Assembly (NCBI GenBank): GCA_016841445.1
Contig: JAENZD010000002.1
Coordinates: 558,001 to 622,000, forward strand
Length of the DNA stretch: 64,000 bases
From: Anaerolineaceae bacterium
Lineage (GTDB): Bacteria > Chloroflexota > Anaerolineae > Anaerolineales > Anaerolineaceae
Direction of reading: 5' to 3'
Positions 36,879 to 57,422 of this stretch are shown here, one piece after another. The translations under genes and the position numbers were made by a program. Each line of letters begins with the position of its first letter. The first letter of the stretch is position 1. The notes under the pieces were generated by a model. That model did no database searches, had not been told where the DNA came from, and saw nothing but the letters and a program-made list of their open reading frames with translations.

Positions 36879-37943
36879 ATGTGCACGAAAAAAGCCTTAA
36901 TGGTTTCCTTAGTCCTAATTATACTTCTGATCAGTGGGTGTCAATCAAAGCAAAGTGAGACAACCGCTAATGTGCCAGAAGCAGACGCGGCTGAACAGGA
37001 AGCCGCGGAATCCTATGAAATGACGACAGTCACCATTAATAGTTCAAACCAGGTTACTTTTGCGCCAATTTATTTTGCGCAATCAGAAGGTTATTTTGAT
37101 GAATTTGGTATTGATCTTGAGATTGTAGAATTCAGCATATCACCAGATGCTGTACCATTGCTGGCTACGGGTGATTTGGATGTTTATGCTGGCCCGATAT
37201 CGTCGGGTATATTAAACGTTTTCAGACAAGATCCAAATGTAAAAACGGTAGCAGATCGCGGGAAAATCTCTGAGGATGATTCCTGTACATTCTCGGCGAT
37301 TCTTGTTCAAAAGGATCTCTATGAAAGCGGACAAGTACGCGGCCCAGAAGACATGGCAGGTTTAAAGGTTGCAGCTGCGACCTATTCAATTAAAGGTTAC
37401 GAGCTTGATAAATATCTCGCTTTGGCAGGATTAACCTTCGATGATGTAGAGATTGTGACTCTTCCAACTTCTGCTTTGGTCGATGCATTGAATAATAAAG
37501 CTGTTGATGCTATCGTGACGCCTGAATTTACCCTAACACGCCTGATGATGACCGGGAATGCTGCCATTCTTTCCAGATTTGAGGAAGATGCAGGACCAAT
37601 GCAAACCTCCATATTGGCCTTTGGCCCTCGCTTAATTAAGGATGATCCGGAACTGGGGATTCGTTTTTTGGCCGCATATCTAAAAGGTGTTCGGAAATAT
37701 AATGAAGGAAAGACAGAAGAAAATTTGCAAGCGATTGCTGGCTTGACAGGTGAAGATATTGACCTGCTGGAGCAAGCTTGTTGGCCGTCAATTCGGAATG
37801 ATGGTTGGATTGACTTTTCTGCTTTAGAACCTTACTTGCAGTGGAATATTGAAACTGGCCAGATGGATTTTACAATAACAGAAGAGCAGTTTTGGGATCC
37901 AAGTATATTAGTAGCTGCATTGGAATTGCTTGATAATGAGTAG
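36879..37943 (+). CDS. NMT1/SsuA-like ABC substrate-binding lipoprotein, copy 1
   Basis: 354-residue lipoprotein: signal peptide with lipobox LISGC (Cys21) and an acidic Ala/Glu linker to about residue 45. The NMT1/THI5-like binding fold begins with TTVTINSSNQVTFAPIYFAQ. Shared family blocks are EGYFDEFGIDLE, LATGDLDVYAG, VADRGK, LVQKDLYESG and the C-terminal EEQFWDPSI. Two cysteines conserved in all seven paralogues here (CTF and ACW) may pair. Relatives bind sulfonates, nitrate, riboflavin or pyrimidine precursors, so the ligand is open. It is first of a seven-member array served by one ATPase/permease pair about 12 kb downstream. A GGAGG ribosome site precedes the ATG. Confidence 0.85.
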   Translation: MCTKKALMVSLVLIILLISGCQSKQSETTANVPEADAAEQEAAESYEMTTVTINSSNQVTFAPIYFAQSEGYFDEFGIDLEIVEFSISPDAVPLLATGDLDVYAGPISSGILNVFRQDPNVKTVADRGKISEDDSCTFSAILVQKDLYESGQVRGPEDMAGLKVAAATYSIKGYELDKYLALAGLTFDDVEIVTLPTSALVDALNNKAVDAIVTPEFTLTRLMMTGNAAILSRFEEDAGPMQTSILAFGPRLIKDDPELGIRFLAAYLKGVRKYNEGKTEENLQAIAGLTGEDIDLLEQACWPSIRNDGWIDFSALEPYLQWNIETGQMDFTITEEQFWDPSILVAALELLDNE

Positions 37944-38526: not shown

Positions 38527-39585
38527 ATGTTTTCGAAGAAAAGTTTGATGGTCATACTGGTTCTTATCTTGATCGTTTTAAGTGGATGCCAATCTCAAAG
38601 TGATATGGAATCTACTGATGAGCAAGAGACAGTTGCTGCTCAAGAAACTGAAAGATCTTATGAAATGACCACTGTAACCATTAATAATTCAGCACAGGTA
38701 AATTATGCACCCATTTACTTTGCGCAATCAGAAGGTTATTTTGAGGAATTTGGTATTGAGCTTGAGATTTTAACTTTTACAAAGGTGACTGATGCACCTC
38801 CTTTGCTTGTTTCTGGTGATTTGGACGTCTACGCGGGATCAATATCAGCGGGTTTATTAAATATCTTTAGGCAGGAGCCAAATGTTAAGGCTGTGGCAGA
38901 TCGTGGGAAAATGATCGAGGGGGCCTGTACCTTCCAGGCCATTATTGTTCAAAAAGATCTCTATGAAAGTGGCGAAATTCGCGGGGCAGCAGATCTAGCA
39001 GGTAGGAAGGTCGCAGCAACGGCATCGGCTATGAAAGGGTATGAGTTAGGTGTGTACCTTGCAACTGCTGGGTTGACTTTTGATGATGTTGAATTGGTTG
39101 ATATTCCATCGTCTGCATTGGTGGATGCACTAAATAATAAAGCCGTTGATGCTATTGTGACACCTGAATCTGTCCTGACACGCTTGATGATGACCGGGAA
39201 TGCCGTAATTTTATCCAAAGGTGAGGATGATGTAGGACCATTACAGACTTCAGTTTTAGCTTTTGGCTCTCGGTTAGTTAAAGATGATCCTGATTTAGGT
39301 GCTCGTTTTTTGGCGGCATATCTCAAAGGCGTTCAGAAATATAATGAAGGAAAGACAGAAGAAAACCTGCAAGCAATTGCAGGATTTACGGGGGAGAGTA
39401 TTGACCTGCTAGAGCAAGCCTGTTGGCCGCCAATGCGTGAAGATGGTTGGATTGATTTTTCGTATGTGGAACCTTTCATTCGATGGAATGTAGAAATGGG
39501 TCACCTTGATGCAACTGTCACAGAAGAGCAATTTTGGGACCCAAGTATTCTCGAAGCGGCGTTAGCTTTGCTGAATAATGAGTAG
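38527..39585 (+). CDS. NMT1/SsuA-like ABC substrate-binding lipoprotein, copy 2
   Basis: 352-residue lipoprotein, the closest relative of copy 1 (near-identical blocks such as TTVTIN, PIYFAQSEGYF and YNEGKTEENLQAIAG). The lipobox is VLSGC (Cys21), followed by a Glu/Gln-rich linker and the NMT1-type fold from about residue 48. The binding-cleft region differs from copy 1 (ILTFTKVTDAPPL against IVEFSISPDAVPL; AATASAMKGYELG against AAATYSIKGYELD), so ligand preference may differ. The conserved pair CTF/ACW is kept. Together with the upstream glycosyltransferase fragment it marks a tandem duplication. AGGAGG lies 5 nt before ATG. Confidence 0.85.
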   Translation: MFSKKSLMVILVLILIVLSGCQSQSDMESTDEQETVAAQETERSYEMTTVTINNSAQVNYAPIYFAQSEGYFEEFGIELEILTFTKVTDAPPLLVSGDLDVYAGSISAGLLNIFRQEPNVKAVADRGKMIEGACTFQAIIVQKDLYESGEIRGAADLAGRKVAATASAMKGYELGVYLATAGLTFDDVELVDIPSSALVDALNNKAVDAIVTPESVLTRLMMTGNAVILSKGEDDVGPLQTSVLAFGSRLVKDDPDLGARFLAAYLKGVQKYNEGKTEENLQAIAGFTGESIDLLEQACWPPMREDGWIDFSYVEPFIRWNVEMGHLDATVTEEQFWDPSILEAALALLNNE

Positions 39586-40115
39586 CTTATAAAAGTAGAT
39601 CAGTAAATAAAATTTCGATATTAGAGGCTGCCTTTGATTTTAGGGCAGCCTCTATTTTATATAAAATCTTAAATTGATTAACAACAAAATCCCATCTTAT
39701 ATTGTGAGATAAATAACAATTATCTGAACCCACGCCTTATATTCTCCGAGTTTATGTTTGGAATTATAAATTCTTCCTTCTGATAGGATCAATATCACCT
39801 CAGGAAATTAACCTGACAGGGGATGTGGTTCGTGAAAAATTACAGGTTGGCGAAGGCCTGGTTACCGTCCTTGAGACAATGAAATGTTGATCTTGCCTTG
39901 GATCGCGCTCATTATTTATATAAAAAATCCAATCTAAGTAGAAAATCAAACGAAAACAATATCAATTTTGTATGCATAATTAATAGAGTGAAATATGATA
40001 GAATGAAAATTCGAGAAGATTAAAAAAAGCGTTCTGAATTTAAAGTCAATACGGGGCTTTGCTTTCTTTCTTAGGTACACTTATTATGTAAAAGTCTTTA
40101 GTTGTGGAGGTTGTG
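39586..40115. other. 530-nt gap between copies 2 and 3
   Basis: Holds the terminator at 39623-39653. A 58-codon open frame at 39717-39890 contains INLTGDVVREKLQVGEGLV but has no good start and no family I recognise; it could be another gene remnant. From 39900 on it is AT-rich promoter-like DNA ending in a GGAGG ribosome site at 40106-40110. Confidence 0.5.
39623..39653 (+). terminator. rho-independent terminator after binding-protein copy 2
   Basis: Perfect 10-bp stem: AGAGGCTGCC (39623-39632) with GGCAGCCTCT (39644-39653), 11-nt loop, followed by ATTTTAT. It is 37 nt after the copy 2 stop, so copies 1 and 2 are each terminated on their own rather than cotranscribed with the transporter. 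Confidence 0.75.
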
Positions 40116-41141
40116 ATGGATAAAAGAAAAGTTTTGATGATTCCGTTAATCGTTATTGTGTTTTTGATGAATGCCTGTCAACCCAAAAACGAAGCCCAGG
40201 CTCCTGATGGGGATTATGAAATGACCACGGTGACGATTAATGATTCCGTCCAGATCAACTATGCACCGATCTACTTTGCCCAAACTGAAGGCTATTTTGA
40301 AGAATATGGCATTCAGCTTGAGTTCTTGAATTTTAACAGTGTTACTGAAGCTGTTCCGCTGCTCGTTTCAGGTGATCTGGATGTTTATGCGGGGTCAATC
40401 ACAACGGGGTTGATGAATATATTGGCTCAAGAACCAAACGTAAAAGTAGTTGCAGATCGCGGGAAAGTCATTGAGGATTCTTGTACTTTTCAGGCGATCC
40501 TTGTCCGAAAAGATCTCTATGATAGCGGTGCGGTTCGCAACGCTGCAGACCTTGAAGGGATACGGGTTCGAGCTACAACTGCTGGTATGACTGGCTACCA
40601 ACTCCGCGCTTATTTGGCAAAGGCGGGATTAACCTTTGATGATGTCGAATTAACCAATATACCAAGCTCTTCTTATATTGATGCCTTCAATAATAAGTCC
40701 GTCGATGCGATCGTAACGCCTGAATTCAATCTTACACGACTGTTGATGAATGGAAATGCTGTTATTTTATCAAAAGCCGAGGAAGATATTGGTCCCTTGC
40801 AGGCCTCCGTTTTAGCCTTTGGCCCCAGGTTATTAGATGAAGATCCAGAATTAGGGACTCGCTTTATGGCGGCTTACCTAAAAGGGGTAAAGAAATATAA
40901 CGAAGGAAAAACCGAGGAGAATTTGCAGGCGGCTGTTGAAAAAACAGGCCAGGATATTGAGTTGGTGAGAGCAGCCTGCTGGCCGCCGATCAGGGAAGAT
41001 GGTTGGATAAACTTCTCATATTTAGATAAATACCAAGAATGGAATGTTGAAACCGGGCAGCTTGAGGAGATGCTTACTGAAGAACAGTTTTGGGATCAAA
41101 GTATTCTTGAAGCAGGGTTAGCTTTGCTCAATAATGATTAA
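40116..41141 (+). CDS. NMT1/SsuA-like ABC substrate-binding lipoprotein, copy 3
   Basis: 341-residue paralogue. The lipobox is LMNAC and the linker is shorter than in copies 1 and 2. The fold then starts MTTVTINDSVQINYAPIYFA. It contains EGYFEEYGIQLEFLNF, VSGDLDVYAG, VADRGK, LVRKDLYDSG and YNEGKTEENLQAA, and ends in EEQFWDQSI. The cysteines CTF and ACW are conserved. The start is ATG 40116, five nt after GGAGG; the in-frame GTG at 40104 overlaps the ribosome site. Specificity residues differ again in the cleft segment (VRATTAGMTGYQL). Confidence 0.84.
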   Translation: MDKRKVLMIPLIVIVFLMNACQPKNEAQAPDGDYEMTTVTINDSVQINYAPIYFAQTEGYFEEYGIQLEFLNFNSVTEAVPLLVSGDLDVYAGSITTGLMNILAQEPNVKVVADRGKVIEDSCTFQAILVRKDLYDSGAVRNAADLEGIRVRATTAGMTGYQLRAYLAKAGLTFDDVELTNIPSSSYIDAFNNKSVDAIVTPEFNLTRLLMNGNAVILSKAEEDIGPLQASVLAFGPRLLDEDPELGTRFMAAYLKGVKKYNEGKTEENLQAAVEKTGQDIELVRAACWPPIREDGWINFSYLDKYQEWNVETGQLEEMLTEEQFWDQSILEAGLALLNND

Positions 41142-41287
41142 GGCTTGTAATTATTGGTCTGAATGTTATTTGGGTATATTCAATATATTGCTTGATCATG
41201 AAGCTGGATAATAACCGAAGATTAATAATAAAAGAGTCAATATAGTCGAATTAGGTGAATTTGTCTACTGAAAAAAGGAGTTCTATT

Positions 41288-42301
41288 ATGAAATATAAGC
41301 TTTCAATTTCACTTCTACTTCTCATAATATTCCTGGGAGGATGCGGAAAGCCTCAGCCTGGCCAAGATTCACCGGATGAAATCATTACCCTGAGAATGAC
41401 CATTTCGGATAATTTAAGTTATGCCCCTCTCTTCATTGCTGAAGAAGAGGGATACTTCACGAAATATGGGATCCAGATTGAATATGTAACCACAAAAAAA
41501 GCAGCAGATTCAATCGCGATGTTGTCTTCAGGGAAGATCGATATTTATGCGGGTACGCTTAATGCCGGTTTGATCAATGCAATCCAGGTAGATGATAATA
41601 TCAAAGTCGTCGCGGACCGCGGCCATACAGAACCGGGAACCTGCACTTACCAGGCAATCGTTGTCAGGAAGGACCTGTATGACAGCGGACAGGTTACTGC
41701 CCCAGAAGATTTGAATGGATTAACTTTTTCTGCGTCTACTGCTGGCCCTGCTGCTTTCCTGTTAAGTTCCTATATCAGCCAGGGAGGATTAACTTTTGAA
41801 GATCTTGATATCATCGATTTGCCGACAGCATCAGAAATGGATGGGTTTGATACCGGGTCCCTGGACGGAAGTATTGCCCCTGATCCAGATCTGACCCGCT
41901 TGCTCAGGACAGGAGATGTTTCAATCCTGGCAACCGCTGAGGATGTCCTTGGCACATTTCAATCAGGCATCATCGCTTTCAACAACCAATTGTTGGAAAA
42001 AACCCCGGATGTCGGTGTCCGGTTTATGGCAGCTTATCTCGAGGGCGTACGCCAATATAACCTGGGTAAGACGGACAGGAATATTGAGATCATCGCAGCG
42101 GCAACCGGTGAAACGGCTGAAGATGTCAAGGAATTTTGCTGGGTTCCCGTGAGTGAAAATGGCACCATCAACTTCCCAAGCGTTGATAAATTTCAGCAGT
42201 GGTCTATTGAACAAGATCAGCTTGCAGAAGCAGTGAGTGAGGAGCAATTCTGGGATTCCAGCGTTGTTGAAAGCGCCATATTGCTTCTAACAAACGATTA
42301 A
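41288..42301 (+). CDS. NMT1/SsuA-like ABC substrate-binding lipoprotein, copy 4
   Basis: 337 residues, the most divergent of the first six paralogues. The lipobox is FLGGC, then ITLRMTISDNLSYAPLFIAE and EGYFTKYGIQIEYVTTKKA. VADRGHTEPGTCTYQAIVVR keeps the first conserved Cys and EFCWVPV the second. The usual VDAIVTPE segment is changed to LDGSIAPDPD, so the ligand contact may differ. It ends SEEQFWDSSV like the others. The start is ATG 41288, seven nt after AAGGAG; the in-frame GTG at 41255 is unsupported. Confidence 0.83.
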   Translation: MKYKLSISLLLLIIFLGGCGKPQPGQDSPDEIITLRMTISDNLSYAPLFIAEEEGYFTKYGIQIEYVTTKKAADSIAMLSSGKIDIYAGTLNAGLINAIQVDDNIKVVADRGHTEPGTCTYQAIVVRKDLYDSGQVTAPEDLNGLTFSASTAGPAAFLLSSYISQGGLTFEDLDIIDLPTASEMDGFDTGSLDGSIAPDPDLTRLLRTGDVSILATAEDVLGTFQSGIIAFNNQLLEKTPDVGVRFMAAYLEGVRQYNLGKTDRNIEIIAAATGETAEDVKEFCWVPVSENGTINFPSVDKFQQWSIEQDQLAEAVSEEQFWDSSVVESAILLLTND

Positions 42302-42373
42302 GATTTAAAGATCATCACCTAATAGAAATGTTTGAGAGTTTTCAATGGGTTGCTTAAGAAAAGGATGGAAAGA

Positions 42374-43393
42374 ATGAAAAAAATTTTGCTGGTGTTGAGC
42401 CTTGTGATTTTGTTGTTGAGCGGGTGTTCTCAATCAGAACCCCAGAAACCAGGCTCATATGAATCGGTAACCTTGAAAATGAATTATGCCCTGGTCATTA
42501 GCTATGCGCCTATCATTCTTGCTGAAGCAGAAGGTTATTTTGAGGACTATGGCATCGAGATTGAAAAGGTAACATTTAACAGCTCAGTAGAGGCGGTACC
42601 CCTTGTTGTCAGCGGTGAACTGGATGTCTTTGCTGGTGCGAGTACGGCAGGTATCCTCAATGTACTTGGTCAGGAAGATAACATCAAAGTCGTTGCTGAC
42701 CGAGGGCATATTGAGCCGGGCGGGTGCACATTCCAGGCGATTGTTGTCCGAAAAGATCTTTATGACTCCGGTGAAATTACAACGGGTGAGGATTTAGCAG
42801 GTCACAGTGTGTCGACGCCGCCAACGGGGCCTGGCATGTATTTTCTCAGCACGTATCTTGATCAAATTGGTCTGACCGTTGAAGATGTTGAGGTTGTTGA
42901 TATTCCCACGTCATCTTATGTGGATGCCTTCAGGAATAAAGCCGTCGATGCAGTTGTTCCCACAGAACTTCATCTAAGTCGATTGATGGCTGATGGCAAC
43001 GCGGTGATCCTTGTACGCAGCGAAGACGTGGTGGGTTACTACCAGACGAGCCTATTGGCATTTGGGAAGAACTTGCTCAAAGATGATCCCGATTTAGGCG
43101 TGCGGTTCCTGGCAGCTTACTTGAAGGGTGTTGAAAAATATAATGAGGGTAAGACAGAGGAAAATTTAAAGGTACTCTCTGAAGCCACAGATATAGATAT
43201 TGATATGCTTGAGAACTCATGCTGGTTATCCATAAGCCCTGATGGCATGATTGATTTCGATGGCGTTGAGAAGTTCCAAACGTGGTCTCTTGATCAAGAA
43301 TTTATGGAAAGGATGATCACGGAACAAGAGTTTATGGATACCAGTTTTCTTGTCAAGGCAAAAGCGTTATTAGAGGAAGAAAGTAATCAATAA
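42374..43393 (+). CDS. NMT1/SsuA-like ABC substrate-binding lipoprotein, copy 5
   Basis: 340 residues. The lipobox is LLSGC and the linker is short. The fold starts VTLKMNYALVISYAPIILAE with EGYFEDYGIEIEKVTF. VADRGHIEPGGCTFQAIVVR resembles copy 4 in its Glu-Pro-Gly insertion. The cleft region is SVSTPPTGPGMYFL and VDAVVPTELH, differing from copies 1-3. Unlike the others, the C-terminal block reads EQEFMDTSF instead of EEQFWD. I start at ATG 42374 because AAGGA precedes it at good spacing; the in-frame ATG at 42332 adds 14 residues ahead of the signal peptide without a ribosome site. Confidence 0.83.
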   Translation: MKKILLVLSLVILLLSGCSQSEPQKPGSYESVTLKMNYALVISYAPIILAEAEGYFEDYGIEIEKVTFNSSVEAVPLVVSGELDVFAGASTAGILNVLGQEDNIKVVADRGHIEPGGCTFQAIVVRKDLYDSGEITTGEDLAGHSVSTPPTGPGMYFLSTYLDQIGLTVEDVEVVDIPTSSYVDAFRNKAVDAVVPTELHLSRLMADGNAVILVRSEDVVGYYQTSLLAFGKNLLKDDPDLGVRFLAAYLKGVEKYNEGKTEENLKVLSEATDIDIDMLENSCWLSISPDGMIDFDGVEKFQTWSLDQEFMERMITEQEFMDTSFLVKAKALLEEESNQ

Positions 43394-43484
43394 CGCTAAA
43401 ATTTGGATTTTGAAATAAACACCCTCGGTACGACTATCTTGGTTAAGAATTAAACACTGTATATATGAAAGGTGAGTGAGGTGT

Positions 43485-44495
43485 ATGAATATAAAAGCGA
43501 TTGTTTTTTCCATTCTAATAATAGTGATGGTTTTTTTGGCTGCCTGTCAGCAAGACGCAGCGCCAGAGTCATACGAGATGACAACAGTGACCATCAATAA
43601 TTCAACACACATGAGTTATGCGCCGATCTACATCGCAGAGGCTGAAGGTTATTTTGAGGAATTTGGCATCCAGCTTGAAAAAGTCACTTTTAATCAGACG
43701 GTTGAAGGGATTCCGTTGCTGCTATCCGGCCAACTGGATGTCTATGCGGGTGCCAACAACCCGGGATTGATCAATATTTTCCGTGACGAACCAAGCGTCA
43801 AAGCGGTTGCGCAGAGAGGCGCGGTATTATCAGGTTCCTGTACGTATTTAGGGGTCCTGGTTCGCAAAGATTTATATGATAGCGGGATAGTCACCAGCCT
43901 GGAGGACCTGAAAGGGTTAAAGGTTATTGTTACTGAGACGGGAACGACAGGATATGCCTTCAGCCAGATGATTGGAGAAGTTGGCCTGACATTTGCAGAT
44001 GTTGAGACACATACGATGCCGCCCTCGGCTTATGTTGATGCCTTCAGGAATCAGACGGTTGATGCGATCGTTACACCGGAGTTGAATCTGACAAGACTTC
44101 TATTGGATGGCCATGCCGTTTTGCTGGGCAAGGCTGAGGACTCTGTAAGTCCATTTCTTACTTCTGTGTTAGCTTTCGGAAAAAGGCTCATTGTTGATGA
44201 TCGGGACCTCGGTGTAAGGTTTATGGCAGCATATGTCAAGGGTGTTGAGAAATACAACGAAGGCGCGACCGAGGAGAATCTCACGATCATTAACCAGGTA
44301 TCAGGTGATGAAATTGATATCCTGGAAACTGCTTGCTGGATTCCAATACCTGTAGATCCACAAATTGATTTTACAGGTGTTGAAGGATTCCAGCAGTGGC
44401 TATTTGATGAGGGACATATTGATGCCCTTATTACAGAAGAACAGTTTTGGGATCCAAGTTTTATCGAGGAAGCCCACAAATTACTTGGAGATTAA
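43485..44495 (+). CDS. NMT1/SsuA-like ABC substrate-binding lipoprotein, copy 6
   Basis: 336 residues. The lipobox is FLAAC with a very short linker. The fold begins MTTVTINNSTHMSYAPIYIA, then EGYFEEFGIQLEKVTF and LSGQLDVYAGANNPGL. The otherwise fixed VADRGK becomes VAQRGA, a change at a motif shared by all other copies. SCTYLGVLVRKDLYDSG and TACWIPI keep both cysteines. It ends EEQFWDPSFIEEAH. The likely start is ATG 43485; the in-frame GTG at 43476 gives three more residues. It is followed 186 nt later by the first A-PCP-TE gene. Confidence 0.83.
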   Translation: MNIKAIVFSILIIVMVFLAACQQDAAPESYEMTTVTINNSTHMSYAPIYIAEAEGYFEEFGIQLEKVTFNQTVEGIPLLLSGQLDVYAGANNPGLINIFRDEPSVKAVAQRGAVLSGSCTYLGVLVRKDLYDSGIVTSLEDLKGLKVIVTETGTTGYAFSQMIGEVGLTFADVETHTMPPSAYVDAFRNQTVDAIVTPELNLTRLLLDGHAVLLGKAEDSVSPFLTSVLAFGKRLIVDDRDLGVRFMAAYVKGVEKYNEGATEENLTIINQVSGDEIDILETACWIPIPVDPQIDFTGVEGFQQWLFDEGHIDALITEEQFWDPSFIEEAHKLLGD

Positions 44496-47339: not shown

Positions 47340-47428
47340 TCAGATGATTCAATAAAAAAAACCAGGAGATTGAGGATTATTAAATTTTTTCGTTAATGAA
47401 CCCAACTAGCAGTGAAAGGTACGATCCA

Positions 47429-48526
47429 ATGAAATTTAGGAAATTCAACTTAATTTTTATTCTTATGCTCTTGTTCCCTATTCTGGCAGGCTGCTCGCAA
47501 GGTGCAGATGAACCACAAACGCAAGTATCTCAAGAGATTCTGGCAGAAGAACAGAAGCACACGCCTTTTGAGCCTGCAACAGAAGAGCAGTTACAAAAGG
47601 CTTATGAGACTGTGACAGTAACAATTAACGACTCAGTCAATATTAATTACGGGCCAATTATCCTGGCTGAAAAATTGGGATATTTTGCTGAATATGGTAT
47701 TGAGCTTGAAAAAGTTCAGTTTTCACATGTGGCAGATGGCATTCCTTTGCTGGGCAGCGGTCATCTCGATGTATATGCTGGCTCAATCACTGCTGGCTTT
47801 CTGAATATCTTAGGACAAGATCCAAATATCAAGGTTGTTGCTGATCGCGGTCTGATTACACCGGATCGGTGCACTTTCCTTGCGCTGTTGATGAGGAAGG
47901 ATCTTGTGGAAAGTGGCAAGGTAGACGGCCCTGAGGATTTGGCTGGACTTGAGATCAATGCTGTTAAATCCAGTCCTACCGGTTATTTGTTGAGTGAATT
48001 CATCAAAGGAAGTGGCGTGACTATTGATGATATTTCATTCAATAATTTACCTGCGACTACGTATATTGACGCTTTTGCCAACAAAACCCTGGATGGGATC
48101 ATTACGCCCGAGATTAAAATTTCACGAACTTTGAGTGCCGGCGATGCTGTAATATTTGCCGCTATGGAGGATGTTGTTGGTAATTACCAATCCTCAGCGC
48201 TTGCTTTTGGAAAGAACTTAATTACAGATACTCCGGATATCGGCGTTCGATTTATGGCAGCGTATTTAAAGGGTTTGGAAGAGTACAACAAAGGCAAAAC
48301 GGAAGAGAACCTTCGCCTGCTTAATGAATACCTAAATGAGGATCCGGAACTTCTTAAACAAGCCTGCTGGGTGTACATTAATCCTGAAGGTACGATTGAT
48401 TTTCAGAATGTTGTACCCTTCATGACCTGGGCTGTTGAAAATGGTCACCTTGATAACCTTATCACTGAAGAGCAGTTCTGGGATTCAAGTTTTATTGAAA
48501 GAGCAAATGAATTATTAGGTGATTGA
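47429..48526 (+). CDS. NMT1/SsuA-like ABC substrate-binding lipoprotein, copy 7
   Basis: 365 residues with the longest linker of the seven. The lipobox is ILAGC, then a Gln/Glu-rich stretch to about residue 62. The fold starts ETVTVTINDSVNINYGPIIL with LGYFAEYGIELEKVQF. VADRGLITPDRCTFLALLMR and QACWVYI keep the cysteine pair; LDGIITPEIK replaces VDAIVTPE. It ends EEQFWDSSF. The start is ATG 47429 with AAAGG nine nt upstream; an in-frame ATG at 47396 is unsupported. It lies between the two A-PCP-TE genes and nearest to the ATPase and permease, so it may be the transporter's original partner. Confidence 0.83.
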   Translation: MKFRKFNLIFILMLLFPILAGCSQGADEPQTQVSQEILAEEQKHTPFEPATEEQLQKAYETVTVTINDSVNINYGPIILAEKLGYFAEYGIELEKVQFSHVADGIPLLGSGHLDVYAGSITAGFLNILGQDPNIKVVADRGLITPDRCTFLALLMRKDLVESGKVDGPEDLAGLEINAVKSSPTGYLLSEFIKGSGVTIDDISFNNLPATTYIDAFANKTLDGIITPEIKISRTLSAGDAVIFAAMEDVVGNYQSSALAFGKNLITDTPDIGVRFMAAYLKGLEEYNKGKTEENLRLLNEYLNEDPELLKQACWVYINPEGTIDFQNVVPFMTWAVENGHLDNLITEEQFWDSSFIERANELLGD

Positions 48527-48700: not shown

Positions 48701-51700
48701 ATGCAAGGTAACCAACTAATTTATTCAAGTAAGCAGGATTTGTTAGAAAATTTCTGGACTCATATCAGGCAGGTTGTTGAGCAAAATAGTACGAAACCTT
48801 ATATCATGACCAATAGGGGAACGCTGACCTACAGCCAGCATAATCATCATGCTAATGTGATTGCTGATAAGATATCCCCACATTTTACTCAAGAACGATT
48901 TGGTGTTGGCCTTTTCATGAAGGATCCGTTGTGGATCATCCCTGCGATGTTCGGCGTCATGAAAACCGGGTTGTATTTTATCCCACTTGACGTGACTTTT
49001 CCTAAAAAAACTCTGCATCAGATGTTTGAGATTAGCAATATTAAATATGTGCTAACTGATAATGCGAATGTTCACGAGGCAGAGAAGATCCTGAAACCAG
49101 GTATGACCCTCGTCAACCTGGAAGAGCTTGATTACTCACGTGAAATACCTGAGCCTGATGTTCCGTTTTCACCGGATGATATCGTGCAGATCCTGTTCAC
49201 ATCGGGTTCTACCGGGATGCCAAAAGGTGCGGTTGAGGATTACCGGTATCTGGTCCGCTCGATTGTTGTGAAATTAGACCGGGGTGTTTACGAAAAGGGT
49301 GATAAATCACTCCAAATTTCCACATTCACATATTCAGCGCCTCATTCGCATACTTTTGCCATGTTGCTCGTCGGCGGGACACTCTATTACCACAGTGTTA
49401 AAGATGAAGGATTACTGGCTGTCCCGGATATCATTCGCCAGGAACAAATTACAACAACGTCTGCTACACCGACCGTGTTTCGGTCATTTGTCAGCATGTT
49501 AAGCCCCTCGGATACTTTTCCTTCGATCAAGAAAATGAGTTTGGGCGGTGAAAAAAAACTCCTGGAGGATATCAAAGCAATTCGCAGGCTGTTTCCCAAT
49601 GTAGAAACCATTGGCCTTGGCTTTGCGTCCACGGAGACCCAGATGGTCTCGACCCATGAGTTCCCCATTGACCACCCATTTGAAGATAATGCGATTCCTT
49701 CTGGCAAGCCTTATAAGGATATTCAATTATTGATTTGGGATGAGGAAGGCAATCCGCTACCCGATGGAGAAGAGGGTGAGATCGTTGTTTATGGCGATGC
49801 GCTTGTGCGTGGTTATATTAATAACCCCGAATTGACAAATGCACAATTCATCCCTGACCCGGATAATCCTTTGGGGCAGTATTTTAAAACAGGAGACCTG
49901 GGGAAGGTCTTACCGGATGGCCAGTTGCTGCATCTGGGACGGATTGACAGCATGGTCAAAATTAAAGGCGTGCGGATTGAATTGGAAACAGTGGAAAATT
50001 ATATCCTTGGTTATCCGGGTATTATCCAGGTCGCCTCCCGTGCGATCGATGACCATAATGGCGGAAAAAAACTTGTTTCATACTTTGTCGCCGCTGATGG
50101 ATTGGAAATACCTGTTTCTGATTTGCGCAAATTTCTTGCGGAGAGGCTGCCTCCGCAGCACCTACCTCATTTCTTGATCCAGCTTGAAAAAATTCCGATG
50201 ACACGCAATGGAAAAGTTTCTCTCACTCAACTGCCAATGCCCCTTATGGTTCGTCCTGATTTAGCTTATCCATTTGAGCCGCCTGCGGATGCATTGGAGC
50301 AGTCATTGGTCGGAATATGGGAAGAACAGTTGGGAATCGCTGGCATTGGGGTCAACGATGACTTTTTCGATGTGGGTGGCGATTCGCTTCTGGGCGTTGT
50401 TTTGGTAGTCGCGATCGAGGAGAAGCTGGGAACGGAACTGCCCGTTTCCGTATTGCTGCAAGCGCCAACCATTCGCCGCCAGGCGGATATGATCCGAAAT
50501 AAGCAAACCGACCAGGCGTTTTCCACTGTTATCCCCATTCGCACTGAAGGATCCCTGCCACCGTTGATCTTTATTCCCGGCAAAGGCGGCTACCCAACCC
50601 GTATCAGGCACCTCTCAAAAGCCCTTGATCCTGAAATTCCCGTGTATGCAATGCAGGATTTACTTGGAAGCTCAAGGGTTGCTAACGGTGAAAAACAAAT
50701 CAAATCAACAGCAAGTTTATATTTGAGTGAGATCAGAAACATTGCGCCTCGTGGTCCCTATGTCCTTGTGGGTGAATCTTTGGGCGGAAAAATTTGCTAT
50801 GAGATCGCTCAACAGCTGCTGGCACAAGGTGACCCGGACCCCCTTGTGTTCATGCTCGACACATATAACTTAGATCACTCAGTTATCGATGATTACAGGG
50901 AAGATCGTGATATTCCCTATTATAAAATGCTGGTGGGAAAGCATCTCAGTATTTGGTTGAAGTCAGATTGGGAAGGCAAGAAAGAATACCTGCGTTTTTA
51001 TCGCGATACGATCGGTGATAAGCTCCGTCGTTTTGTGAAGGGAAAGTTATTTGCTGAACGGCATTCTCATAAGGAATCAAAAGCGTCTTTGCTGCCAGAG
51101 AATGTCAGACAAATGGAGCGTCAATTAAAAGACGCGGTCACAAATTATGAGGTGAAACCTTATCCCGGAAGGATCATTTATATTAAAGCCCTGCGCGGGC
51201 CATATGCCTATGATAAAACGAATGGCTGGGATACGGTGGATATTGGGAAGCTTGTAGTTCACCAGCTTGATTGCTACCATGGGAGTATTCTGTTTGAGCC
51301 GGCTGTCACTGAACTGGCAGATATAATTCAAAAATACATTCGTGGTTCTTATAAAGAAAATTCAACGATAACTTTCGAAGATATCAGTAAGCGTTATGCA
51401 AAAGATACAAATAGAGAGGTATCTGCGCTCGACCACATCACTTTTTCCGTCAAAGAAAACGAGTTTGTTTCGATCGTGGGCCCAAGTGGATGTGGGAAAA
51501 CAACATTTCTTAAGATCGTGGCCAACCTGATCAAGTCAGATACCGGGATGATAAAATATGAAGGTTTTGATAACCCCAGTGCAGCATTGGTTTTTCAAGA
51601 CCAGGGCGTGCTGCCATGGATGACGGTGCTTGATAATGTGGGGTTGGGTTTGGAATTAAAGGGGATCCCTAAAAAGCAGCGTCAGGAACAGGCTTTGGAT

Positions 51701-52153
51701 TTCATGAAAGTTGTCCGGTTGGAGGGTTTTGAAAAATACTACCCGCATGAACTTTCCGGGGGTATGCGCCAGAGGGTTGCCCTTGCCCGAGCATTCTTAA
51801 CCAACCCGGATCTTCTCCTGATGGATGAGCCTTTTGGCGCTCTGGATGCCCAGACCAGGATCGTCCTACAGGAGGAATTGTTGGATATCTGGCGAGAACA
51901 TCCGAAGACAGTGTTATTTGTAACCCATGACATTGATGAGGCTATTCTACTCAGCGACCGGGTGCTCGTGATGAGCGACCGGCCGGGCAGGATCCAGGCT
52001 TCGATCGATATTCCCATCCCGCGCCCAAGGGACCTGACTCAAAAAGATGATCATAGATTTTTGGAGATAAGATGGAAAATTTGGAATCTACTCGAAAAGG
52101 AAGTGCGAGAAGACATAAAAATCGTTCAGGAGAAGTATCCGTTTCCAAAGTAA
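48701..52153 (+). CDS. A-PCP-TE synthetase fused to an SsuB/TauB-type ABC importer ATPase
   Basis: 1150-residue four-domain protein. Residues 1-880 are colinear with the A-PCP-TE protein at 44682: LFTSGSTGMPKG (165-176), GRIDSMVKIKGVRIE (413-427), Lys505, carrier Ser562 in DVGGDSLLG, and thioesterase Ser693 (GESLGG), Asp720 and His860. Residues about 887-1150 form a complete ABC ATPase of the nitrate/sulfonate/taurine class: Walker A GPSGCGKTT (927-935), QDQGVLPWM Q-loop, LSGGMRQR (1018-1025), LLLMDEP (1038-1044) and His1076. All catalytic residues of all four domains look intact. The A4 region FTYSAP again lacks the amino-group Asp. The end overlaps the permease gene by 82 nt. I know of no standard family with this domain order. 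Confidence 0.9.
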   Translation: MQGNQLIYSSKQDLLENFWTHIRQVVEQNSTKPYIMTNRGTLTYSQHNHHANVIADKISPHFTQERFGVGLFMKDPLWIIPAMFGVMKTGLYFIPLDVTFPKKTLHQMFEISNIKYVLTDNANVHEAEKILKPGMTLVNLEELDYSREIPEPDVPFSPDDIVQILFTSGSTGMPKGAVEDYRYLVRSIVVKLDRGVYEKGDKSLQISTFTYSAPHSHTFAMLLVGGTLYYHSVKDEGLLAVPDIIRQEQITTTSATPTVFRSFVSMLSPSDTFPSIKKMSLGGEKKLLEDIKAIRRLFPNVETIGLGFASTETQMVSTHEFPIDHPFEDNAIPSGKPYKDIQLLIWDEEGNPLPDGEEGEIVVYGDALVRGYINNPELTNAQFIPDPDNPLGQYFKTGDLGKVLPDGQLLHLGRIDSMVKIKGVRIELETVENYILGYPGIIQVASRAIDDHNGGKKLVSYFVAADGLEIPVSDLRKFLAERLPPQHLPHFLIQLEKIPMTRNGKVSLTQLPMPLMVRPDLAYPFEPPADALEQSLVGIWEEQLGIAGIGVNDDFFDVGGDSLLGVVLVVAIEEKLGTELPVSVLLQAPTIRRQADMIRNKQTDQAFSTVIPIRTEGSLPPLIFIPGKGGYPTRIRHLSKALDPEIPVYAMQDLLGSSRVANGEKQIKSTASLYLSEIRNIAPRGPYVLVGESLGGKICYEIAQQLLAQGDPDPLVFMLDTYNLDHSVIDDYREDRDIPYYKMLVGKHLSIWLKSDWEGKKEYLRFYRDTIGDKLRRFVKGKLFAERHSHKESKASLLPENVRQMERQLKDAVTNYEVKPYPGRIIYIKALRGPYAYDKTNGWDTVDIGKLVVHQLDCYHGSILFEPAVTELADIIQKYIRGSYKENSTITFEDISKRYAKDTNREVSALDHITFSVKENEFVSIVGPSGCGKTTFLKIVANLIKSDTGMIKYEGFDNPSAALVFQDQGVLPWMTVLDNVGLGLELKGIPKKQRQEQALDFMKVVRLEGFEKYYPHELSGGMRQRVALARAFLTNPDLLLMDEPFGALDAQTRIVLQEELLDIWREHPKTVLFVTHDIDEAILLSDRVLVMSDRPGRIQASIDIPIPRPRDLTQKDDHRFLEIRWKIWNLLEKEVREDIKIVQEKYPFPK

Positions 52154-52946: not shown

Positions 52947-53897
52947 TTAGGATTTTATCTCTATGATTTCCTGGATTTCATAGATTGTTTTGCCTTGTGA
53001 CTCATGATAGGTCCGCATGAGAAGTTCCGCAATTAACCCCAATAATATTGACTGAAAACCCAAGACAAACATCATAATGCTGATCTGGAAAAATGGCGAT
53101 CCAAGGACGGAGACGCTGGTGATGATCCGCCTGATTGCCAACCAGATCAATATACCGGCGCTGACCCCCATTAACCCCAACCCGACCCCACCGAATAAGT
53201 AGATGGGTTTATCGTTGTAATGCATTAAGAACTGGAGGGTGAAAAGATCCAGGACTACTTTGAAAATACGGTTTAATCCGTAATTAGTATGGCCGTGTTT
53301 TCGAGGGTGATGGTGGACAACTATTTCAGAGATCCTTGCGCCAACTTTGCTGGCATATACGGGTATGAAGCGGTGCATCTCGCCATACAGGTTAATGCGA
53401 TCGAGGACATCTCGCCGGTATGCCTTTAGCGTGCAGCCATAATCATGAAGGTGAACTCTGGTGACCCGTGAGATAAGAAGGTTAGCAAGGAAAGAGGGAA
53501 TCTTTCGAATAAAGAGTTTGTCTTTTCGCTTTTTCCGCCATCCGCTGACGACATCGTAGCCTTTGTCAAGCTCGGCCAATAAAGCAGGAATATCTGCAGG
53601 GTCGTTTTGCAGGTCAGCATCCATAAGGATGACAATATCGCCATTTGAATGCTTGATTCCAGCCGTTATCGCCGCTGTTTGACCGCATTGTCTTTTAAAT
53701 GCAATAACCCTGACATTTTTCGGATTTGATTCAGCGAATTTTGATAATAATTCGAAACTTCGGTCAAGACTGCCGTCATCCACAAATGTTGCTTCCCAAT
53801 TGTATTGGTGGGTTTGCATGACAGTTAATATCGATGAGAATAGTTCTTCAAGATTCCCATCTTCATTATGAACCGGAATGACAATTGATAATTTCAT
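52947..53897 (-). CDS. GT2 glycosyltransferase, polyprenyl-phosphate sugar transferase type
   Basis: 316 residues. An N-terminal GT-A domain (KLSIVIPVHNEDGNLEELF; catalytic acidic motif MDADLQNDP at about 91-99) is followed by two C-terminal membrane helices (about 228-300). This is the architecture of GtrB/ArnC/DPMS enzymes that move a sugar from a nucleotide to a polyprenyl phosphate. Such lipid-linked sugars are the donors used by GT-C transferases, two of which are in this window (34665 and 54338). It is convergent with the permease gene, 26 nt away. Confidence 0.9.
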   Translation of the reverse strand: MKLSIVIPVHNEDGNLEELFSSILTVMQTHQYNWEATFVDDGSLDRSFELLSKFAESNPKNVRVIAFKRQCGQTAAITAGIKHSNGDIVILMDADLQNDPADIPALLAELDKGYDVVSGWRKKRKDKLFIRKIPSFLANLLISRVTRVHLHDYGCTLKAYRRDVLDRINLYGEMHRFIPVYASKVGARISEIVVHHHPRKHGHTNYGLNRIFKVVLDLFTLQFLMHYNDKPIYLFGGVGLGLMGVSAGILIWLAIRRIITSVSVLGSPFFQISIMMFVLGFQSILLGLIAELLMRTYHESQGKTIYEIQEIIEIKS

Positions 53898-54337
53898 GTT
53901 TTTGCCTGATTAAATGTTTTTCTTGTAATGTTATTCTTGTAATGTTATTCTTGGGATAAACGCCTGCTCCCAATAGACCTATTATATAATAAAATCTAAT
54001 TTCTGGATTAAAATCTTACCATGCCGATGTTTTTACTGAGAATTTCATTGTCTATCTTTGATTGGGAATGGTAATGATTGAATTCTTGGAAAAAAAGGTG
54101 TTAATCGCAAGGCCCCCCATAATTAAGGGGGTAATAAACGGCATCAAACTATTTTTGAGATTTTACATATCATTTATGCCGTATTAAAATGATTTAACGC
54201 CATGTACTTTTGGTTTGGTTATCATTTGCGATATAATGGATTGTCAGCATGTAATAAGTTATTATATGAATCTTGGCAAATAAACGTCTTAGGGTCGATG
54301 GGGTAACATAAGACGTAAATGCTATGCAGGTAACCTT
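53898..54337. other. 440-nt divergent intergenic region with small repeats
   Basis: Between the divergently transcribed GT2 and GT-C genes. It holds a tandem repeat of the 14-mer TTCTTGTAATGTTA (53920-53933, 53934-53947, then a partial third unit to 53953). There is also a C5/G5 hairpin (54114-54118 with 54127-54131) and an ACGGCAT/ATGCCGT pair (54138-54144, 54176-54182). No reading frame is convincing. Promoters for both flanking genes are expected here but not clearly seen. Confidence 0.5.
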
Positions 54338-56182
54338 ATGCATAAAAAAATGAAGAAGCAACAACTCATTGAGAAACTACCCTTAATCCTAGCCCTGGTT
54401 GGTATTGTAATATATGCTGCACAATCAACTTATTACGCGCTTTACCAAATTCCAGTGATGGATGAGGGCGCTTATTTGATCAAAGGGTATCAATTTGCAT
54501 TAGGAAACTATAAACCATTTCAGCCTTATGGTTTTTGGACCAACAAAATGGTCCTGGGGTTTTATATCTGGGGCTGGATCCAGGTTATTTTTTCTCCCGG
54601 TCTGCTCGCGCCAAGATTGTTTGCTGTTGTTTTTGGTGTGGCCACAGTCGTTGGCACATGGCTAACGATTAAGCGAGTTGGCAACAAGTGGTTTGGCATG
54701 ATCTCTGTTTGGACCTTTGCTTTGAATCCATACCTGGTGGGCAATTACAGTTGGGCGGTATCCCAAATCCTTGTTATAACCATGCTGACATGGATCCTGT
54801 TCCTCATTTTGGATCGAAATTTGCCCACCTGGAGAATTATTGCTGCGTCCATTCTGTCAGTGGTTTTAGTTTTCACCAGGGAAAATATGGTTTTCTTCCT
54901 CCCCCTGTTTCTTTTATATGTTTTTTGGCAGCATGGAAAGAAAAAGGGGTTCTATGCTCTGGGCGTTGTTTTGGCATTATTCATCATCGGACATCTCCTT
55001 TTCTGGCCGGGTATCCTCTATCTTTGGGAAAGATGGATCCCTGATTTTGGTTCTATAACCACCGAATCAGATGGCCCGTCATTTGGGGCCGATATTGGTG
55101 GGAATTCATTGTATCAAAGGGTTTTGAGCTTAACCACCGCGTTAAGAGTCTTTCTTGTACCGCTGCTGGGATCTTTGCTTGTGTTAATCTTTTTCCCCAT
55201 AAAGAAAGCCTGGAAGTCCGATTTTCATCGAAAATCAACGGTATTTCTGCTGGTCACATTTGCAATTTTTCTTGCTGCTCATACCTACGCATCAGCCGGT
55301 CTGGACTACTGTGTTTTTTGCACAGCACAATATTTTGCGTTCTTTGGCAGTATCGGTTTGATCCTTTTCGCGGCGAGTTATGAATCTTTGAAGAAATCGG
55401 ATTCACCTCTGCGCAAGATTCTTTCGGCAGTATTGCTCATAATAATTTTCAGCCTTGTTGGGTTTTCATTATTTGAATTGATTGGCAATCCGCTTAACAA
55501 TATTTCATTTCCAAGAATTGCGGATGGGAAAATCCTTCCGGGGTCAGCTAGGTTATGGCAAATCCTGGCAAATAAATTTGGGCTTTCATTCGAAACGTCT
55601 CGACGGCTGCTGCCAACGCTGTTGGGATTATTGATTGGAATCGTAGGAATGTTGCTCATCCTGATTTTTTCAAAGAGATTAGCCCTCCGGCATAATAAAA
55701 CCTTCTTTAATTACTTTATTATTTTGCTCTTCATCCCAATTCTACTTTTCCTTCCTCTGATAAACCAACTCCCGAAAGGATCATTGTGTTCGGCAAGTGT
55801 CCCGCGGATCTACCAATCTATGGCAAACCGCATCCTTTCGCGGATTGATCCTGGCGAAAAGGTTTTTACTTTCAGTAACATTTCCAATGTCCCTTTGATC
55901 TATTTACCGATTGAGCATATCTATCCTCCGCAAGTCAACGGAGATTTTGGTTTAAGAACATCTGATAATACGGATGAATTGCTTGAAGCAGGCTATTGGA
56001 GCCTGGAAGCAAAAGAACGGTGGATAAACGAAGCGGAATTTTTCATTGTAGGCGTGGGTGAGTTGGGTCCCTGGGAAGATGAGGAGATTGAAAGCCGTCG
56101 AATATTCTCGATGGGGAGTTCTCTTTTTTCAGGGGCATGCCCGGCTGATGAAAATATCTATATTTTTATGAGAGAAGATTAA
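54338..56182 (+). CDS. second GT-C fold membrane glycosyltransferase
   Basis: 614-residue polytopic protein. The first external loop has PVMDEGAYLIKG with the acidic pair Asp42-Glu43, the GT-C catalytic hallmark, followed by a TNKMVLGFYIWGWIQVIFSP segment and about ten more helices. The soluble C-terminal ~150 residues include IDPGEKVFTFSN and NGDFGLRTSDNTDELLEAGY. It presumably uses a polyprenyl-phosphate sugar made by the adjacent GT2 enzyme to glycosylate a surface glycan or protein. Only distantly similar to the protein at 34665. Confidence 0.78.
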   Translation: MHKKMKKQQLIEKLPLILALVGIVIYAAQSTYYALYQIPVMDEGAYLIKGYQFALGNYKPFQPYGFWTNKMVLGFYIWGWIQVIFSPGLLAPRLFAVVFGVATVVGTWLTIKRVGNKWFGMISVWTFALNPYLVGNYSWAVSQILVITMLTWILFLILDRNLPTWRIIAASILSVVLVFTRENMVFFLPLFLLYVFWQHGKKKGFYALGVVLALFIIGHLLFWPGILYLWERWIPDFGSITTESDGPSFGADIGGNSLYQRVLSLTTALRVFLVPLLGSLLVLIFFPIKKAWKSDFHRKSTVFLLVTFAIFLAAHTYASAGLDYCVFCTAQYFAFFGSIGLILFAASYESLKKSDSPLRKILSAVLLIIIFSLVGFSLFELIGNPLNNISFPRIADGKILPGSARLWQILANKFGLSFETSRRLLPTLLGLLIGIVGMLLILIFSKRLALRHNKTFFNYFIILLFIPILLFLPLINQLPKGSLCSASVPRIYQSMANRILSRIDPGEKVFTFSNISNVPLIYLPIEHIYPPQVNGDFGLRTSDNTDELLEAGYWSLEAKERWINEAEFFIVGVGELGPWEDEEIESRRIFSMGSSLFSGACPADENIYIFMRED

Positions 56183-56270
56183 CAATTTGCGTCCCAGATT
56201 TGATTACGCGTAAAAGACTATCTGAGAACATAAAGGATGATCAGCTACATTATTTTCGCAGGAAGAAGTT

Positions 56271-57422
56271 ATGAACATTCTTGTCCTTAATTATGAGTTT
56301 CCGCCATTGGGGGGTGGTGCTTCGCAGGTTTCTTTTGAGATCGCAAAACGCTATGTCGGAAAAGGGCATAATGTTGATGTGATCACAATGGGGTTCAAGG
56401 GGTTGCCGGATTTCGAGGTAATTGATGGGGTCAGAGTCTTCAGGGTGAAAGCGCTGCGGGAAAAGGAAGCGACCTGCGAAACACATGAGATGCTTTCTTA
56501 CGTCATCAGTGCCATCTTTTTCATCCGTAAAAATATTGATATCCAAAAGTATGACGCCTGCCACTGTCATTTTTTAATCCCAACCGGGTTGGTCGCTTTA
56601 TATCTCAAAAATAGATTTGATTTAGACTATATTGTGACAATCCACGGCAGCGACATCCCAGGATTTAATCCTGACCGGTTTAAGCTTGAACACGTTTTTA
56701 CAAAGCCACTGCTTAAGAAGGTCGCTCATCAAGCTAAGGCGGTTTGTTCACCTTCTCATTATCTCAAGGATTTGGCGGAACAGAATATCGGAATTGCTGA
56801 AATCGTCCATGTTCCCAATGCGATTGATTTGGGAGAATTTAAATTGGATTATAGCAAGCCCAAGGAAGATATTATTCTATCCACGGGGAGGCTTTTGGAA
56901 CGAAAGGGCTTTCAGACCCTGATCAGAGCAGTAAAGGATATTACACTGCCTTGTGAAGTTCATATTGTCGGTGATGGACCTTACCGGTCAGTGCTTGAAT
57001 CCATGGCCGTTGGTTCGGAAACCAAAATTCATTTTGATGGGTGGATTGAAAAAGGCTCAGAACCCCTGAAGGACCTTTATGAAAGAGCATCTATCTATGT
57101 TTTGGCATCAGCCAGGGAAAATGCCAGCATCGCGCTATTAGAAGGTATGGCGGCTAAGTGCGTGATGATCACGACCAATGTTTCCGGCTGCCCGGAAACG
57201 GTCGGTGATGCAGGCTTTCTAATCGATTATGATGATGATCAAGCATTACAAGGAATCCTGATTAAGTTATGTCAGGATAGAGAAAAAATCGACAATTACT
57301 CCCAAAAAAGCTACCAAAGGTTGATCGAAAATTTTTTGTGGGATAAGAGCATTGGGAAGTATTTGACCCTTCTACATAAATCAAAAAAAGTAAAACCTTC
57401 AATTAATCCGGTTATTGAATAG
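56271..57422 (+). CDS. GT4-family glycosyltransferase
   Basis: 383-residue GT-B enzyme. The N-terminal domain starts MNILVLNYEFPPLGGGASQV (acceptor-side glycine loop). The C-terminal domain has LSTGRLLERKGFQTLIRAV and HIVGDGPYRSVLE, then SARENASIALLEGMAAKCVM with the EX7E-type Glu residues, and CPETVGDAGFLIDY. These are standard GT4 features for a retaining transferase with a nucleotide-sugar donor. It acts at the cytoplasmic face, in the same glycan pathway as the neighbouring GT2 and GT-C genes. Confidence 0.9.
   Translation: MNILVLNYEFPPLGGGASQVSFEIAKRYVGKGHNVDVITMGFKGLPDFEVIDGVRVFRVKALREKEATCETHEMLSYVISAIFFIRKNIDIQKYDACHCHFLIPTGLVALYLKNRFDLDYIVTIHGSDIPGFNPDRFKLEHVFTKPLLKKVAHQAKAVCSPSHYLKDLAEQNIGIAEIVHVPNAIDLGEFKLDYSKPKEDIILSTGRLLERKGFQTLIRAVKDITLPCEVHIVGDGPYRSVLESMAVGSETKIHFDGWIEKGSEPLKDLYERASIYVLASARENASIALLEGMAAKCVMITTNVSGCPETVGDAGFLIDYDDDQALQGILIKLCQDREKIDNYSQKSYQRLIENFLWDKSIGKYLTLLHKSKKVKPSINPVIE

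Follow-up and report, generated by a model that had tools for sequence, protein, structure and literature searches.

An adenylation-carrier-thioesterase enzyme joined in one reading frame to an importer ATPase, and the linkage of such enzymes to NitT/TauT-class importer genes in Anaerolineales

The window analyzed here, a stretch of 64,000 nucleotides from an Anaerolineaceae bacterium (assembly GCA_016841445.1, contig JAENZD010000002.1, positions 558,001 to 622,000), contains a gene in which an adenylation (A) domain, a peptidyl carrier protein (PCP) domain and a thioesterase (TE) domain are joined to an SsuB/TauB-type ATP-binding cassette (ABC) ATPase. It lies within a group of importer genes comprising a permease gene, with which its open reading frame (ORF) overlaps by 82 nt, and seven genes for binding lipoproteins (SBP1 to SBP7), together with a second A-PCP-TE gene that lacks the ATPase (Table 1). 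The Pfam matches of the 1150-residue product fall in the order AMP-binding, AMP-binding_C, PP-binding, Thioesterase and ABC_tran, each above its cut-off, and no condensation domain is among them. Motifs of both halves are read in the translation: TSGSTGMPKG, the A10 lysine, GGDSL with the carrier serine and the thioesterase GESLGG in the enzyme half, and Walker A GPSGCGKT, LSGGMRQR, Walker B LLLMDEPF and the H-loop THD in the ATPase half. A preliminary description, made from the letters of this DNA alone, had reported a single 1150-codon frame joining A-PCP-TE to an ABC ATPase with the signature residues of both halves present, and had placed the end of the paralogue where the ATPase begins in the fusion; the open frame with its Pfam order, the motifs and an alignment bear out all of this. 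The carrier serine is conserved in all 31 proteins aligned, which come from loci chosen from the match lists and do not represent every match.

Table 1. Features of the fusion gene and of the importer and enzyme genes beside it; positions are those of the window.
Feature	Coordinates	Strand	Evidence
A-PCP-TE-ABC fusion protein, 1150 aa	48701..52153	+	open frame, ATG start, no internal stop; Pfam domain order
A domain core, residues 24-372	48770..49816	+	Pfam AMP-binding 8.8e-51
Residue S212 at GrsA D235 position	49334-49336	+	LgrA alignment
A domain C-terminal subdomain, residues 431-505, last = A10 lysine K505	49991..50215	+	AMP-binding_C 1.1e-6; alignment
Carrier (PCP) domain, residues 535-598, phosphopantetheine serine S562	50303..50494	+	Pfam PP-binding 1.9e-16
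TE domain, ~residues 621-880, S693/D720/H860	50561..51340	+	Pfam Thioesterase 4.5e-15 (residues 621-726); alignments
Junction, ~5 residues (YKENS), end of TE homology to start of ATPase homology	51350..51364	+	
SsuB/TauB-type ABC ATPase domain	51365..52150	+	Pfam ABC_tran 2.7e-28 (residues 910-1045)
A-PCP-TE paralogue without ATPase, 885 aa	44682..47339	+	54% identical to fusion; sister in tree
Importer permease, 282 aa	52072..52920	+	Pfam BPD_transp_1 4.5e-21
NMT1-type binding lipoprotein SBP1	36879..37943	+	Pfam NMT1 2.7e-18
NMT1-type binding lipoprotein SBP2	38527..39585	+	Pfam NMT1 4.2e-20
NMT1-type binding lipoprotein SBP3	40104..41141	+	Pfam NMT1 2.1e-20
NMT1-type binding lipoprotein SBP4	41255..42301	+	Pfam NMT1 2.2e-16
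NMT1-type binding lipoprotein SBP5	42332..43393	+	Pfam NMT1 1.3e-19
NMT1-type binding lipoprotein SBP6	43476..44495	+	Pfam NMT1 2.5e-14
NMT1/SsuA-type binding lipoprotein SBP7, between both A-PCP-TE genes	47396..48526	+	Pfam NMT1 4.3e-14

From the sequence around the junction and from one relative, the fusion is very probably real. An assembly artefact would require that the genes are in fact separate and that an error of one or two bases in the A-rich junction joins their frames; the base composition of this segment, an out-of-frame GTG at 51342 and the restriction of the fused form to the window genome speak for such an error. Against it, frame 0 alone is coding-like in all twelve 90-nt segments starting between 51200 and 51530, as judged by a codon table built from 11 stretches of the window, the fusion gene among them, and the TE and ATPase homologies share one frame up to about five residues apart. 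There is no in-frame ATG, GTG or TTG between 51290 and 51460, so that a separate ATPase would be without an obvious start of its own. The host genome (3.35 Mb) is assembled in 8 contigs, and just one of 97 matches in it carries a stop, which also argues against an error. In genome G563, whose genes follow each other as in the window (binding protein, synthetase, ATPase and an overlapping permease), the A-PCP-TE gene ends in TAA and the ATPase ATG follows immediately in the same frame; the loss of one stop codon would thus give the window arrangement. Because the ATPase has no ordinary start and G563 has this arrangement, we favor a real fusion and regard an assembly artefact as improbable.

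Among the genomes searched, no family of fused chains emerges, and the fusion is so far lineage-specific. The ATPase is matched at E 1e-78 or better in 14 of the 400 genomes searched from the order (the best six candidates per genome being scored), and only the window genome has the fused chain, with a frame length of 1152 as compared to 230-347 elsewhere. A query of TE plus ATPase matched in 70 of 147 genomes of the family at 1e-60 (best nine candidates per genome), and both halves are spanned in the window genome only. That the fusion itself is a family is therefore not supported, there being no second fused chain in either set. The preliminary description had named the absence of the fused form from relatives with split genes as a ground for rejecting the fusion, and this is the distribution observed, which does not by itself make the fusion false. 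In a tree of the 31 proteins, the fusion groups with its paralogue (100/99), and G387 and G691 join this pair next (100/100); since the two window copies are sisters with those genomes outside, the gene was duplicated after the lineages had separated, and the fusion would most simply have arisen on the branch leading to the window genome.

In the relatives the same components are encoded by separate, neighboring genes. All four parts (NMT1-type binding protein, permease, ATPase and A-PCP enzyme) are present in one locus in 13 genomes, including that of the window (the others being G387, G616, G738, G566, G688, G646, G1067, G563, G607, G719, G027 and G638, where in G607 and G638 the contig ends within the synthetase), and the cassette is partial in five more (G691, G591, G508, G903 and G059). 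The nearest relative, G387, has a free-standing ATPase of 256 residues that is 69% identical to the ATPase part of the fusion, beside a permease (63%), an A-PCP-TE enzyme (53%) and a binding protein. Eight loci were compared from the order-wide search, representing eight of the 13 genomes with matches besides G000 and G387, and importer genes accompany the A-PCP-TE gene in seven of them, with none at G705; in two of the seven they are incomplete or displaced, G691 having a binding protein only and G591 having importer genes on the other strand, some kb away and with no permease. Nineteen further A-PCP-TE loci, with weaker matches and again G705 among them, include four with importer genes (G1067, G508, G563 and, as a binding-protein fragment, G903).

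The linkage is also recovered when the importer is the starting point. A search of the 400 genomes with the ATPase alone gave 13 non-self matches, ten of them readable (contig ends lie beside the ATPase in G691, G515 and G508), and a synthetase is found in the same locus in eight of the ten: G387, G566, G646, G607, G719, G027, G563 and, partially at a contig end, G638. Twelve further importers of this class served as controls: each has a binding protein, a permease and an ATPase, and none has a synthetase in the stretch examined. They were hand-picked from the rows of the family search and include the window genome's own second importer. The one-sided hypergeometric chance of eight of ten against none of 12 is 45/319770, to be read with caution, since G566, G607, G646 and G638 form one family and do not count as independent rows. 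The pairing occurs in two permease lineages that are only 23-31% identical to each other, and the synthetases of the cassette fall in several deep branches of the tree, with varied gene order. On this tree the label of importer or none changes four times as compared to 10.7 in shuffles, with 0 of 500 shuffles as low, a contrast inflated by related rows; the labels reflect matches within the examined stretch, and some stretches end at contig ends. Distances among 11 loci co-vary for the A-PCP enzyme and the binding protein (r 0.68), ATPase (0.55) and permease (0.51), and for the importer parts among themselves at 0.91, which means that the importer parts travel together and the enzyme is bound to them more loosely, with shared descent still contained in the r values. 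We are confident that the importer-enzyme linkage is real and functional, and the conserved cassette upholds that part of the preliminary description's proposal of coupled import and adenylation in which importer and A-PCP enzyme belong together.

Interleaved arrays of binding protein, A-PCP-TE, binding protein and A-PCP-TE genes, ordered much as in the window, are seen in G508 (L096) and G563 (L097), and G563 has a second, full cassette (L122). In G515 (L148, 7727-10365) the A-PCP part (654 aa) and the thioesterase (218 aa) are two adjacent frames with no importer adjoining. Among more distant sequences, 1704 plasmid records matched, none covering more than 80% of the query in one place; two of the ten listed (H6 and H2) were considered as relatives and set aside, since they are nonribosomal peptide synthetase (NRPS) clusters that lack an NMT1 importer and have a DevC-type exporter or a TonB receptor. 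A single-protein scan of a collection of named genomes matched only two Lachnospiraceae ATPases, and viral contigs gave no match. At E 1e-60 the A-PCP-TE part has no match in 15 genomes of the same genus.

The A domains provide some indication of what is activated. Both window copies have Ser at the position of GrsA D235, and among 21 importer-linked A domains (a set that excludes the G638 fragment) none has Asp there and none has the proline of GPTE; the residues at this first code position are Ser, Ala, Gly, Thr or Glu. The Asp holds alpha-amino groups. Its loss has been tied to hydroxy, keto and aryl acids, as loss of the GPTE proline has been to a keto-acid enzyme (PMC11253843). A carboxylic acid without an alpha-amino group is a plausible substrate, which sustains the earlier suggestion of acid activation to the extent that the Asp of amino-acid enzymes is missing. 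The missing Asp was also considered as a marker of the importer group and rejected as such, for 11 of 15 A domains with no importer lack it too; it marks a wider group of A domains and not the importer link. The pockets of the two window copies read S A S S S G G M V K and S A L T H G G S V K, position 235 being placed by the LgrA alignment and the others by GrsA numbering, and with these differences the two copies probably differ in substrate. That the imported molecule, or a close derivative, is what the A domain activates we consider somewhat more likely than not.

A further feature of the cassette is that the release domain appears exchangeable, being either a thioesterase or a domain resembling lipid A acyltransferases. 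The importer-linked synthetases of G027, G719 and G059 have no thioesterase but, at that position, a domain of about 360 residues. That of G059 matches Pfam Lip_A_acyltrans above cut-off (1.7e-9) and an NCBIfam phosphatidylinositol-mannoside acyltransferase model below that model's cut-off (1.7e-11); that of G719 matches Lip_A_acyltrans below cut-off (5.8e-4), and that of G027 has no Pfam match and a weak NCBIfam match (3.8e-5), and is 35% identical to the G059 domain (1e-64). When 151 genomes were searched at 1e-100 with a profile of the three, seven gave matches, all confined to the A-PCP part, and no other A-PCP-LPLAT protein appeared. In these three relatives the C-terminal domain is probably an LPLAT domain as in AlmG, the protein of the Alm system that attaches carrier-bound glycine to lipid A (PMC3783018, PMC4790380; what one paper calls AlmE is AlmF in the other). 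With the A-PCP-LPLAT order as in the Alm system, transfer to an acceptor is likelier than free release, which shifts the expected outcome away from the mere thioester capture of the preliminary description. The window protein itself has a thioesterase here and neither an LPLAT nor an MBOAT acyltransferase domain.

The envelope is suggested as the destination by some of the surrounding genes, which we take as a hint only. Genes for glycosyltransferases, sulfotransferases or Wzm/Wzt-like proteins lie beside five loci (the window, G591, G027, G059 and G750). A transfer to an acceptor that would be located in the envelope is a possibility to which we give somewhat less than even weight. A flippase-like LPG_synthase_TM gene is present beside the cassette in three loci (L031 and L055 by Pfam, L052 by similarity), and Ser/Thr kinase-like genes are near it in L052, L053, L055 and L056 (Pfam-checked in L053). 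In both G750 (L119, 8232-9847) and G059 (L118, 2547-4126), an ATPase and permease of the cassette clade are followed by similar sets of glycosyltransferase genes.

The explanation that best accommodates these observations, and which we put forward tentatively, is that of an importer-fed A-PCP enzyme which loads its acid on the carrier for transfer to an acceptor; a lipid or glycan of the envelope is one possibility. The binding lipoproteins would catch a carboxylic acid that lies outside the cell and lacks an alpha-amino group, and the permease and ATPase would bring it in; the A domain, tethered at the cytoplasmic side through the ATPase, would adenylate it and load the acyl group onto the carrier as a thioester; and the C-terminal domain, whether thioesterase or, as in the three relatives, LPLAT-like, would pass it to the acceptor. 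Importers of the NitT/TauT class contain two ATPases, so that a complex would carry two synthetases. What is observed directly is that the genes are linked, and specifically so, that the assembled sequence has the fusion and that the catalytic motifs are complete; we infer the substrate, the acceptor and the direction. In a more speculative version, which we think less likely than not, the importer hands an environmental acid directly to the carrier-bound enzyme, and this transfers it to a lipid or glycan of the envelope, so that the cell would display on its surface molecules taken from outside; in the window genome the enzyme forms one chain with the motor of the importer, the release domain is exchangeable and the multiple binding proteins would widen the range of acids.

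Several observations weigh against the importer-fed enzyme. Importer genes are lacking at 15 of the 19 further A-PCP-TE loci; at G750 there is no A-PCP enzyme in 18 kb, and G059 has none on the 8-kb contig of its ATPase, with an A-PCP-LPLAT gene and a binding protein on another contig. The absence of Asp is shared with the importer-free A domains, three importer-linked A domains have Glu at the first code position, and McyG activates Phe with Val in place of the Asp (PMC11253843). Of the three LPLAT-like domains only one is firmly assigned, and the window thioesterase may simply hydrolyze or cyclize. Envelope genes adjoin some loci only, others lying beside housekeeping or kinase genes, and they stand beside the importer genes in G059 and without the enzyme in G750. 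The predicted structure of the fusion has a pLDDT of 34 and was not used.

The linkage can be read in other ways. In one, close to the alternative raised in the preliminary description, the A-PCP-TE product might leave the cell and be taken back, as such or as a metal complex, by the linked importer; a metallophore, a signal or a quinone- or furanone-like dimer of a keto acid would be candidates, and A-T-TE (adenylation-thiolation-thioesterase) enzymes with no condensation domain do couple two aromatic keto acids (PMC9047271, PMC10316625). The multiplication of binding proteins together with A-PCP enzymes in the window, G508 and G563 is explained equally well by such retrieval, and PqqT, a binder of the cofactor pyrroloquinoline quinone (PQQ), is among the PDB fold matches of a binding lipoprotein, if from a weak model. 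We nevertheless think retrieval unlikely: no exporter or tailoring gene recurs in the way the four parts do, no exporter being found in more than three of the 23 loci compared, the Val at code position 1 that marks keto-acid enzymes (PMC10316625) is absent, and a release domain like a lipid acyltransferase suits transfer better than secretion.

Alternatively, the A-PCP-TE part could sense its substrate inside the cell and switch the ATPase, as is done in the nitrate importer of this class by the regulatory domain of NrtC, truncation of which makes transport insensitive to ammonium (PMC6603209). A pure sensor would have no need of the adenylation, loading and release residues, all of which are kept, and the enzyme is a separate gene in the relatives, leaving this reading very improbable. 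Least probable of all is that enzyme and importer are co-transferred passengers with no shared job and an accidental fusion. The patchy occurrence, with no match among the same-genus genomes, and the G750 and G059 loci are compatible with this; the eight of ten against none of the 12 control importers, and a pairing that recurs across several deep branches and both importer lineages while the gene order changes, are not what mere neighborhood would give.

Each half of the protein is of a known kind, and what is new is the pairing, the exchangeable release domain and the fusion. The enzyme half is reminiscent of AlmE/AlmF/AlmG and of DltABCD, which places D-alanine on teichoic acids, in having an A domain and a carrier; in those systems an acyltransferase, which in AlmG has an LPLAT domain (PMC3783018), passes the activated acid to an envelope acceptor. 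It differs in being a single chain joined to an importer, in the absence of the amino-acid Asp and in the thioesterase as the release domain of the window protein. It also resembles the A-T-TE quinone and furanone synthetases (those for atromentin and polyporic acid, and the bacterial RalA and EchA), with the same A-PCP-TE order, no condensation domain and no Asp at code position 1. The window enzyme has Ser at that position and not the Val or other hydrophobic residue of the atromentin or RalA type, and also has Ser where a proline has become methionine in StsA; it further differs in its importer partners and in the replacement of the TE by an LPLAT-like domain in three relatives. From modular NRPSs the window protein differs in the absence of a condensation domain.

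The importer half corresponds to the NitT/TauT importers (SsuABC, TauABC, NrtABCD and ThiYXZ) in its NMT1 binding protein, single permease and SsuB-like ATPase, and departs from them in the N-terminal A-PCP-TE of the ATPase and the seven binding-protein genes per permease. CmpC, which we take to be an NrtC-like ATPase with a fused extra domain, and NrtC itself carry a C-terminal regulatory domain, unlike the N-terminal multi-domain enzyme seen here; the likeness is that NrtC too has a large domain fused to an ATPase of the same class (PMC6603209). Transport is likewise joined to thioester chemistry in the peroxisomal ABC transporter Comatose and its acyl-CoA synthetases (PMC6642094), an analogy only, as the thioesterase activity there is in a transmembrane helix, CoA takes the place of a carrier protein and there is no A-PCP. 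Among the matches listed in open-access titles and the starts of abstracts, none describes an A-PCP enzyme linked to, or fused with, a NitT/TauT-class importer, in agreement with the preliminary description, which knew of no described family with this architecture.

Activating enzymes of this kind are usually read as makers of secreted products that are fed from inside the cell. The conserved tie to one importer class suggests that some may be fed from outside, and were the ligand of the binding protein and the A-domain substrate the same, uptake and thioester formation would be physically coupled in the fusion protein. In that case a release domain that can be exchanged would also open a new route to envelope modification.

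The remaining importer genes of the window have the features of the class, with NMT1/SsuA-type lipoproteins, an SsuC-like permease and an SsuB-like ATPase with the full motif set, and among the matches listed no NCBIfam importer model with a named substrate reaches its cut-off. The NMT1 matches of all seven binding lipoproteins are above cut-off, and a lipobox-like Cys is invariant in them (7/7). SBP1 to SBP3 are 60-71% identical to each other and the other pairs 38-58%, over the aligned parts. One permease thus faces seven binding lipoproteins (36879-44495 and 47396-48526); an array of seven per permease would be unusual for the NitT/TauT class, and judging by their divergence the seven may differ in ligand. 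A structure model of a binding lipoprotein (pLDDT 67) gave Foldseek matches to TauA, a FAMP-binding protein, SsuA, PqqT and NrtA, with TM-scores of 0.2-0.5 that would indicate only the importer class. A strong terminator-like hairpin at 39622-39654, of 13 pairs followed by a T run, is located between SBP2 and SBP3, such that SBP1 and SBP2 may have their own transcript.

The G+C content of the fusion gene (0.459) is inside the range of the other genes of the window (0.375-0.497), and composition is therefore uninformative on horizontal transfer. A promoter scan gave 51 sites as compared to 42.8 (standard deviation 7.1) in shuffles. The carrier would need a phosphopantetheinyl transferase activity, and the host genome has one match above cut-off to that family (PF01648).

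The cassette is flanked by genes for a Wzt-/Wzm-like polysaccharide exporter and for GT2 and GT4 glycosyltransferases (32246-34353, transcribed leftwards, and 52947-57422), and the Wzm-like permease and Wzt-like ATPase are 47% and 41% identical, respectively, to the products of genes beside the G591 cassette. Two large ORFs, at 34665-36689 (674 aa) and 54338-56182 (614 aa), encode proteins with hydrophobic starts. They have no Pfam match, at E 0.001 and 0.01 for the former and at 0.001 for the latter, and are possibly membrane glycosyltransferases.

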